From Chitinophagaceae bacterium (GTDB lineage: Bacteria; Bacteroidota; Bacteroidia; Chitinophagales; Chitinophagaceae): a stretch of DNA of 64,000 nt. The notes under the pieces are model-generated. The model was not told the DNA's origin. It saw only the letters and a program-made list of their open reading frames with translations, and searched no databases. Shown here piece by piece: positions 4,861 through 7,715 of this stretch; position 1 is the stretch's first letter; every line of letters starts with the position of its first letter. The position numbers and the translations under genes were made by a program. The stretch is taken from the NCBI GenBank assembly GCA_024707305.1, contig JANPZZ010000010.1, positions 126,850 through 190,849 on the forward strand. Direction: 5' to 3'.

Positions 4861-6411
4861 TTATTTGCGTTTGCTTTGCAAATATTTCTCATGAATAACC
4901 GTCCCCATGGGTTTGCCCAAAACTTTACTTTCCACCCATGAAATGATGTCGAGATAGGCGAAGGACCTTGTCTCAAAACGGTTTTTTTCCAGGTGTTTGA
5001 TTTTTGACAGGAATTTTTCCAGCTCCGGTTTCATCTGACGCGGAGATATATGGTGGAAAGAATGCCTGATAAACCGGAACATTTCTTCTTCTATCACCGT
5101 AAGGTTTTGCATGCGCGCCATAAAGCGGTAAACTGATTTTGTCAAAGACTCCATCAATTCGTAGTTACCCAGTTCAAAATGTGCTAACATGTGCAACAAC
5201 CGCGCGTAGCATTGCAAATCGGTGCGCAGTTCGCCGGTTTCGTTGATAATGCGCTGCAGATAATCAATCGCTTTGTCGTAATTGCCGCTACCAAAATAAA
5301 GTGTGGCGAATTTATAATTCATCACCATTACGCGGTGCGGATCCAGGAAGATGGCATTTTCACGTAACTGTTCTTCAATCCCTTTTACCAGCGACAAACC
5401 TTCTTTGAATGTACCCAGCATAAAATGCTGGTTGATCTTTGCGGTGCTGATATAGATAAAAGCCTGAATGCGGAAGTTGTCGTGTTCCTGCACGCGACTG
5501 GTGCGTGCAAAGGCTTCAAAATCGCGTAAGGCAATGGCAAATGCTCTGTAATTACGCAGATCAAAGTGTGCATTCAACAAATAATGCATCCCTTTAATGT
5601 AGTGGCTGGTTTCAACCCTGATCATTAAAGGCTGCGCACGAAACAAATCCACCCATTTTTGCGCGTAACGGTAGTACTGCAGAAAGTCCTGGCGAATAAA
5701 CGCATCCCAGCAATAACATTGATACAGATACAGTCTTTCATAAAACCCGGTGAAGCTATCCGCATTGGGAGGCAGGTTATCTTTCATAAACGCACGCACG
5801 CCCGCTTCGTCCTGCTCGTTGCGCGCGTGACCATATCGTGTAAACCAGCTAAATAATAACAGGGAAAGATTACTCAGGCGCGCCATTACATCCACGTGCT
5901 CGCTTACCTCATTGGCTTCAATCGCCAGTTGCTCGGCCCGGCTATGGATGCTCCTGGTGGTATGCAGGTTCTCAATCCGCTTCTCCAGCGCCACTACCTG
6001 CGCCAGGAAGTAGAATTTCTGGTGCGTTCGCGCCGTTTCCTTTGCACGCTCCAGAATCTTGAGACTTTGAACGAATAAGCCTTTTTTATACAAAATATGA
6101 GCATAGTCAAACTGCTCATTTAATTGAAGATCAATGCTATCAGCGCTTTTCAGCAACCTTAAACTGGCCAGGATCTGTTTGTACAGGTGCGTTTTAAGGT
6201 TGTAGAGCTGCCTCTTCTCGGTACCCGGTAGTTTTTTTAATAATGACTTTTCATCATATGTGTCCTGCTTATCCAGTGCATCAAATAACCGGATGATTTT
6301 CAGGTCTTCATTAGCCGAGCTTCTTTTGATGTAAAGCTTAAAGTGTCGCTTCTCCGCTTTCTCAAGAGATTTTATCAATTGAAATAATATATCGTGAGAA
6401 CGGTTGGACAT
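4861..6411 (-). CDS. Conserved helical (TPR-like) protein of unknown function
   Basis: 516-aa ORF, alpha-helical repeat-like composition (KAIDYLQRIINETGELRTDLQCYARLLHMLAHFELGNYE). Confidence 0.6.
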   Translation of the reverse strand: MSNRSHDILFQLIKSLEKAEKRHFKLYIKRSSANEDLKIIRLFDALDKQDTYDEKSLLKKLPGTEKRQLYNLKTHLYKQILASLRLLKSADSIDLQLNEQFDYAHILYKKGLFVQSLKILERAKETARTHQKFYFLAQVVALEKRIENLHTTRSIHSRAEQLAIEANEVSEHVDVMARLSNLSLLLFSWFTRYGHARNEQDEAGVRAFMKDNLPPNADSFTGFYERLYLYQCYCWDAFIRQDFLQYYRYAQKWVDLFRAQPLMIRVETSHYIKGMHYLLNAHFDLRNYRAFAIALRDFEAFARTSRVQEHDNFRIQAFIYISTAKINQHFMLGTFKEGLSLVKGIEEQLRENAIFLDPHRVMVMNYKFATLYFGSGNYDKAIDYLQRIINETGELRTDLQCYARLLHMLAHFELGNYELMESLTKSVYRFMARMQNLTVIEEEMFRFIRHSFHHISPRQMKPELEKFLSKIKHLEKNRFETRSFAYLDIISWVESKVLGKPMGTVIHEKYLQSKRK

Positions 6412-6501: not shown

Positions 6502-6532
6502 TTGAAAGCAAAGATAAGCCTGACTACATTTG
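6502..6532 (+). promoter_or_regulatory. Bacteroidota sigma-A-type promoter for the candidate sRNA
   Basis: TTG (6502-6504), 20-nt spacer, TACATTTG (6525-6532), exact match to TTG-N19-21-TAnnTTTG. Confidence 0.6.
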
Positions 6533-6539
6533 TATCGTA

Positions 6540-6720
6540 ATCGTTCTTACAAATTCATACAGCAGGCAATCGTTGAGGAAAGAGGCAAGTCGTCAGAGGT
6601 CAAAGTAAAGCAGCCTGCGAAACATCCGGTGCTACCGGAATCAGATACTACTTCGAAGAATTTTCATATGGCAAGCAATCGTTAGAGGTCAGTCCGTTTC
6701 TACGGAAGGACCTTTTTTCT
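6540..6720 (+). ncRNA. Candidate stand-alone structured small RNA
   Basis: Lies between the promoter and an intrinsic terminator in a divergent intergenic region; hairpins GCAGGC..GCCTGC and CCGGTgctACCGG; no plausible ORF. Confidence 0.5.
6687..6718 (+). terminator. Intrinsic terminator of the candidate sRNA
   Basis: GGTCagTCCGTttctACGGAagGACC followed by TTTTTTCTTTT. Confidence 0.65.
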
Positions 6721-6860
6721 TTTAAAGGCACGCCAAAATAGTGAAAAAACCTTACCTGTCAACTTTTTATCATCTTTTTTTTCAGGCACTCTCAGTTTTT
6801 GGCGCCGGTCATCCGGTTTTATGTTCAAGCATTTCAGCCAAATTCTATCTTAGCTGCTAA

Positions 6861-7715
6861 GTGCAGCACATCGAATTTTTCCATATCGACCATTTCGACC
6901 GGTATTATCACCGGGTTCCGCCTTCGGGTCCATTATCGCATTTTATCGAGTTTTTTTGGGAAACCAGGTTTGAAAACCTTTGGAAAGCCTATCCAAGAGG
7001 ATTTTCTGATGCGCAGTTTGCCAATATTGGTTATACCTATATCATCAACCTGGGGACCCCCTTTGTGATGCAGGTGAGCGATAAAAAGTTTGCGATGAAA
7101 ACTGACGGGTTCCTTCCGCGCTACAATCCTATTGAATGTTTTCACAAACCCGGCAATCATTTGTTTGGAATTAAGTTTCGCATCTCTCCAGTGATATTTG
7201 AAAAGAAAGTAGATTTTTCAGAATACCACGATTATATCTTTCCACTCAGTTACCTGATGGATGTTTCTGTATTACGAAAAGTAAAAGAAGCAGGATCGTT
7301 TGATGAACGTACTTCCATTCTTTCCAATTATTTTCTTGGTTTGCTGAATGAATACGATGGAGCCACAAACCCGGTACACCTGGTGAGTGAGATACTGGAA
7401 GAAAGTTTTCAATCCAATAAATTCACTGTTTCAATTGAAGAGCTCGCTACAAAAAACAATATCTCTTCGCGCACGCTCCAGCGTTATTTTGAAATGTGTA
7501 CCGGCATCAGCAGTAAACAGGCACTGCAGATCATGCGCATTCGCAAAGCGGCAAGCCACTTAGCCAACTCTCCCGAAAACTTTGACCATAGCATTTATGG
7601 CTATTACGATCACAGTCATTTTTACAAACACCTGAAACAATTTCTCGACAACAACACGCTCAAACAGAAGAACCCGCACTTAAAGCTTTTGAAAAACCTG
7701 AAAGGGGTTCAATAA
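6861..7715 (+). CDS. AraC family transcriptional regulator
   Basis: C-terminal HTH: FTVSIEELATKNNISSRTLQRYFEMCTGISSKQALQIMRIRKAASHL; N-terminal sensor-like domain. Confidence 0.8.
   Translation: MQHIEFFHIDHFDRYYHRVPPSGPLSHFIEFFWETRFENLWKAYPRGFSDAQFANIGYTYIINLGTPFVMQVSDKKFAMKTDGFLPRYNPIECFHKPGNHLFGIKFRISPVIFEKKVDFSEYHDYIFPLSYLMDVSVLRKVKEAGSFDERTSILSNYFLGLLNEYDGATNPVHLVSEILEESFQSNKFTVSIEELATKNNISSRTLQRYFEMCTGISSKQALQIMRIRKAASHLANSPENFDHSIYGYYDHSHFYKHLKQFLDNNTLKQKNPHLKLLKNLKGVQ

Follow-up and report, generated by a model that had tools for sequence, protein, structure and literature searches.

A Bacteroidota-type promoter, several hairpins and an intrinsic terminator lie in succession between two divergent genes in the window (the whole 64,000-nt stretch of Chitinophagaceae DNA analysed), which raises the question of whether this interval encodes a stand-alone regulatory RNA and, if so, to which family it belongs and on which genes it may act.

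The locus and its conserved 3' module

The original prediction had proposed a stand-alone, possibly 6S-like sRNA at this position, and the promoter, hairpins and terminator that it named, as well as the two divergent neighbouring genes, were all found at their given places (Table 1). It had overlooked a conserved 28-nt element directly 5' of the terminator and a copy of this element further upstream (copy A). Taken alone, the exact promoter pattern is at chance level, with 2 matches in the window for 1.5 expected, and the fold of the whole 180 nt is not more stable than that of shuffled sequences (z -0.85). The hairpins in the middle of the molecule are present as described but are not the conserved part of the sRNA, and the possible long-range stem over copy A is absent from the RNAalifold consensus.

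Table 1. Features of the sRNA locus and its neighbours, in window coordinates.
Feature	Position	Strand	Basis
Divergent upstream TPR-type gene	4861..6411	-	Weak BT2802-family / TPR matches
Bacteroidota-type promoter: -33 TTG (6502-6504), N20, -7 TACATTTG (6525-6532)	6502..6532	+	Sequence match; like-placed sites in relatives
Predicted sRNA gene, ~180 nt	6539..6718	+	5' end inferred from promoter, 3' end from terminator
Upstream seed copy A, TTCATACAGCAGGCAATCGTTGAGG	6554..6578	+	86% identity over 21 nt to 6663-6683
Possible long-range stem GCAGGC (6562-6567)/GCCTGC (6613-6618), would cover copy A	6562..6618	+	Fold of window sequence
Upstream half-copy B, GGCAAGTCGTCAGAGGTC	6584..6601	+	Repeat of 6679-6691; conserved in class I
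Small hairpin TCCGGTgctACCGGA, variable spacer region	6625..6639	+	Fold; sequence not conserved
Main seed, 28-nt near-invariant element TTTTCATATGGCAAGCAATCGTTAGAGG	6661..6688	+	Family-wide conservation; complementary to susC translation starts
Intrinsic terminator with U-run, GGTCagTCCGTttctACGGAagGACC-TTTTTT	6687..6718	+	Sequence, fold, covarying stem in relatives
Downstream AraC-type (HTH_18) regulator gene	6861..7715	+	sRNA linkage only in closest relatives

Alignment of the copies found in the bacterial family showed that the 3' module consists of TTTTCATATGGCAAGCAATCGTTAGAGG followed by the terminator; its near-invariance partly reflects the exact-match search by which copies were collected, although searches that tolerate mismatches likewise yield mainly exact copies, and diverged cores such as CATATAGCAAGCAATCGTTAGATC do exist. 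The terminator stem carries compensatory changes (GGTC/GACC, GGCC with GGGC/GGCT, and GGCT/AGCC), with a C-G to U-A exchange inside it. A promoter-like site is present at 59 of 147 loci for 17.8 expected, and 43 of 67 such sites in relatives are grouped at a distance of 107-176 nt on the 5' side of the core. In predicted folds the seed is marginally more unpaired than the remainder of the molecule (0.56 vs 0.53, p 0.08). An alternative pairing inside the seed proposed by RNAalifold was dropped, because MAFFT puts the 3' arm of the terminator in the wrong place when hairpins differ in length.

Two further readings of the interval were considered. A short translated ORF, whether a MASNR-stop reading of the core or a longer frame running through the locus, is suggested by ATGGCAAGCAATCGTTAG, which reads MASNR* in most copies; the ATG is lost, however, in diverged copies (CATATAGCAAGC...) and in the upstream ones, invariance is equally high at third codon positions and in the flanks, and in the nearest relative (L002) the longer frames are interrupted. 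Translation is very improbable. A 6S-like RNA binding RNA polymerase would fit the size of about 180 nt and the independent promoter and terminator, but a search of Rfam 15 at gathering and permissive thresholds with the window and the loci of eight relatives returned nothing meaningful and no match to any 6S family, the folds lack a long rod with a central bubble, many relatives carry multiple copies, and conservation falls on a linear, susC-complementary seed. This reading can be given next to no weight, and the 6S-like assignment is not supported.

The locus is more than a chance arrangement because sequence, promoter placement, compensatory terminator changes and linkage to the upstream gene are all conserved. 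Its own conserved promoter and terminator signals support independent transcription, and the locus is predicted to hold a genuine sRNA gene whose family had not been catalogued before; the stand-alone regulatory sRNA of the original prediction is upheld at this level by a promoter position, core, terminator and locus that recur in relatives.

Distribution and genomic contexts

A DNA search of 60 relatives returned near full-length matches of 86% identity in two congeners (G001, G002) and long matches of about 80% identity in two further genera (G006/G022); in most of the remaining family genomes only the 3' end matched (window 6661-6723), often several times per genome. When 299 Chitinophagaceae genomes were scanned with a 24-nt core pattern allowing up to 3 mismatches, 191 (about two thirds) contained it in 1-11 copies each, the genome of the window having one, and the reversed pattern gave 0 matches in the same set. 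Core copies occur in Niastella, Niabella, Segetibacter, Hydrotalea, Pinibacter and Filimonas, all Chitinophagaceae, and in a few MAGs labelled otherwise. A covariance model of the 3' module matched 49 of 60 Chitinophagaceae genomes and, among about 477 genomes from outside the family, 0 of 189 others of the order and 0 of 288 others of the class, these splits being counted from the rows listed. The sRNA family is therefore confined to Chitinophagaceae, a bacterial family of soil and water, and is not in Rfam; a search of the open-access literature found no Chitinophagaceae sRNA of such a kind.

Three genomic contexts were distinguished. Class I comprises long sRNAs which, as in the window, carry seed copy A and half-copy B 50-110 nt upstream of the main seed, copy A being kept in 41 aligned class I relatives. 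The same divergent TPR-type gene adjoins the class I sRNA at 16 of 17 loci tested, across genera (tblastn, 62-87% identity), and because of this linkage the class I locus beside the TPR-type gene looks ancestral. Class II comprises short sRNAs that frequently lie in tandem with a spacing of about 400 bp, as at L008, L010, L109 and L170, where three to four of them follow one another. In class III, which by our own count accounts for 39 of 147 loci, the module lies at the 3' end of mRNAs encoding small PG1828-type lipoproteins. Two of these lipoproteins come near NCBIfam NF050142 (PG1828 family lipoprotein), scoring 48.2 and 40.1 bits at a cut-off of 50, and L021, L018, L022 and L046 are among the loci where a PG1828-type lipoprotein gene ends in the seed/terminator module.

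That the module also ends lipoprotein mRNAs, and always precedes a terminator, could mean that it is a 3' stabiliser or terminator cassette shared by several transcripts and devoid of any trans target. A stabilising function would need no identity over 28 nt, however, and would not account for the susC-leader results given below, so that a plain cassette is quite unlikely.

Complementarity to susC translation starts

Gene starts in general (613 genes) showed no complementarity to the seed, nor did the starts of neighbouring genes (z about -0.8). Since this general complementarity was absent and FopS of Bacteroides acts on SusC, the susC leaders were tested separately, SusC/RagA genes being collected with TIGR04056 and start codons chosen by rule. 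In each of six genomes with stand-alone copies (G000, which is that of the window, G001, G006, G016, G025 and G097), mean duplex energies were -13.8 to -16.4 kcal/mol, while shuffled seeds, 200 per genome, gave about -11; z ranged from -2.4 to -5.1, and at most 2 of the 200 shuffled seeds matched the energy of the real seed. In genomes that lack the element, susC duplexes were no better than those of shuffled seeds (G009, z 0.1; G003, z -0.3). Pooled, the mean duplex energy was -15.2 kcal/mol in the six genomes with stand-alone copies vs -10.8 in four without (Mann-Whitney p 6e-8), a comparison in which the leaders are paralogous and not fully independent and 27 of the 34 leaders from genomes without the sRNA come from G009. 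In G021, where the only pattern-matched copy is a lipoprotein 3' end, no susC complementarity was seen (z -0.1), and the lipoprotein-borne module may therefore have a role other than susC in this genome.

The same signal emerged from a hexamer count made independently of the seed. CGATTG, AACGAT, GATTGC, ACGATT and ATTGCT were among the hexamers most enriched in susC leaders, besides those of the start codon, in genomes with stand-alone copies, and all of them fall in the reverse complement of the seed; neither G009 nor G021 had such hexamers in its top list. AACGAT, CGATTG or GATTGCT occurred at 25 of 106 susC starts vs 13 of 617 other gene starts (p 1e-13), and the pattern AACGATTGC-N0-6-ATG was enriched in the sRNA genomes, which is weakly informative. 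Within the sRNA, copy A is as complementary to susC leaders as the core (z -4.2), while half-copy B alone (z -0.5) and the adjoining 28 nt used as a control (z -0.2) are not. Paired spans lie mostly between about -30 and +8 of the susC start codon, as exemplified by a susC gene of the window's genome in L221 (-24.0 kcal/mol, -21 to +7), and only about half of the susC leaders give duplexes below -14 kcal/mol. Together, the predicted complementarity to susC starts is specific to genomes with stand-alone copies.

Several separate observations were made during these searches. Full SusC genes are few in three genomes without the sRNA (G003, G029, G116) and very numerous in a fourth (G009); in the latter, a member of the large-genome genus g8, CGTTATG and ACGTATG are over-represented at the start codons of the leaders (L250-L299), perhaps reflecting another regulator or an initiation motif. 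In L115, L141 and L162, AACGATT directly precedes the start of a gene for a membrane protein of about 802 aa (MLMNSALFFAVPAMGVIGLL...), which is a possible non-SusC target. An antisense relation to 16S or the rRNA operon was rejected, the best duplex being no better than those of shuffled seeds.

Proposed mechanism and relation to known sRNAs

The window's genome encodes four RRM_1 proteins. Across one genome per genus in 103 genera, the number of RRM proteins correlates with the sRNA copy number (Spearman 0.62; partial 0.47 after genome size), the sRNA being present in 66 of 80 genomes with at least two RRM proteins vs 3 of 23 with fewer; this is a correlation that still contains shared ancestry, which may explain it. 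RRM proteins of the RbpB type are plausible candidate partners of the sRNA.

It is likely that the locus encodes a stand-alone, trans-acting sRNA whose seed pairs with susC starts and represses SusC translation, probably together with an RRM protein. The sRNA would be transcribed from its own promoter and end at the intrinsic terminator, and its 3' seed, aided by copy A in the 5' part, would pair with the mRNA starts of SusC/RagA TonB-linked transporters, UUUUCAU of the sRNA with AUGAAAA and GCAAUCGUU with AACGAUUGC just upstream. Such a duplex would block ribosome loading and thereby lower SusC synthesis. Among the points against this explanation, the conserved stretch of 28 nt exceeds what pairing by itself would appear to require. 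This long invariance, the two to three motif copies of class I, the correlation of RRM and sRNA copy numbers, and the conservation of a half-copy B devoid of susC complementarity would all suit an element that serves mainly as a platform for an RRM-type protein, the sRNA then acting as a sponge or protein-guided RNA and the susC complementarity being secondary. A platform offers no explanation, however, for the presence of the seed's reverse complement in susC leaders, and only where the genome holds stand-alone copies; it is considered unlikely.

As an extension of the proposed susC repression, one may tentatively envisage a family-wide envelope circuit in which sRNA genes, in tandem or beside the TPR gene, and the 3' end of PG1828-type lipoprotein mRNAs would issue the same module, coupling the output of an abundant lipoprotein to that of many SusC transporters, with a copy number scaled to that of RRM proteins and an evolution separate from FopS toward the same targets; this scheme is possible but doubtful.

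SusC transporters dominate the Bacteroidota outer membrane, and to our knowledge reports of their control by sRNAs come only from gut Bacteroides. That a second sRNA family, with another seed and in another lineage, is predicted to pair at these start codons suggests that controlling glycan uptake through RNA may be general and perhaps repeatedly evolved. The susC leader motif provides directly testable targets, and the natural presence or absence of the sRNA across genera provides controls.

The closest comparison is with FopS of Bacteroides, which represses SusC via start-codon pairing with involvement of RbpB, is stated to be deposited in Rfam, and is reported for the Bacteroidaceae, including a phage-borne copy (PMC11697453). 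In both FopS and the present family, paralogous sRNAs occur in multiple copies and share an extended conserved seed and a Rho-independent terminator (PMC11697453), and the sigma-ABfr promoter, SusC start-codon pairing and RRM protein (RbpB) of FopS are likened to the features found here, the pairing being computed. The two differ in that the seed lies near the 5' end in FopS and next to the terminator, with a duplicate upstream, in the present family, which is limited to Chitinophagaceae and, unlike FopS, also ends lipoprotein mRNAs. GibS of Bacteroides thetaiotaomicron is a largely unstructured, intergenic sRNA of ~145 nt with two seeds against translation-initiation regions (PMC7366714); the likeness lies in this two-seed, intergenic design aimed at translation-initiation regions, whereas GibS is single-copy, has other targets and uses a PM2 promoter (PMC7366714). 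With regard to the features of FopS and GibS, multiple copies, an own promoter and a Rho-independent terminator are found across the family, the window's genome having its single copy; a seed in the single-stranded 5' part is not seen for the main seed, which lies directly 5' of the terminator, although the second copy lies 5'. On a 95-kb viral contig (IMGVR_UViG_3300032216_001476, L440:3773-3850), GGCAAGCAATCGTTAGAGG stands ahead of a hairpin and a T-run; this copy of the module is borne by a phage.

Resemblances extend beyond the phylum. The LhrC sRNAs of Listeria are likewise tandem and multi-copy, with repeated seeds against the translation starts of surface-protein mRNAs, but their seeds are CU-rich, they belong to another phylum and they have no lipoprotein 3' UTR form. 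In MicL-type 3' UTR-derived sRNAs of Enterobacteria, the sRNA sequence lies at an mRNA 3' end and is tied to envelope protein control, as here; there is no sequence relation, and in the present family processing of the lipoprotein mRNA is no more than a possibility. Together, the sRNA may be regarded as analogous to FopS and GibS; the Rfam non-match, the seed position and the lineage may set it apart from FopS, which was compared by its description.
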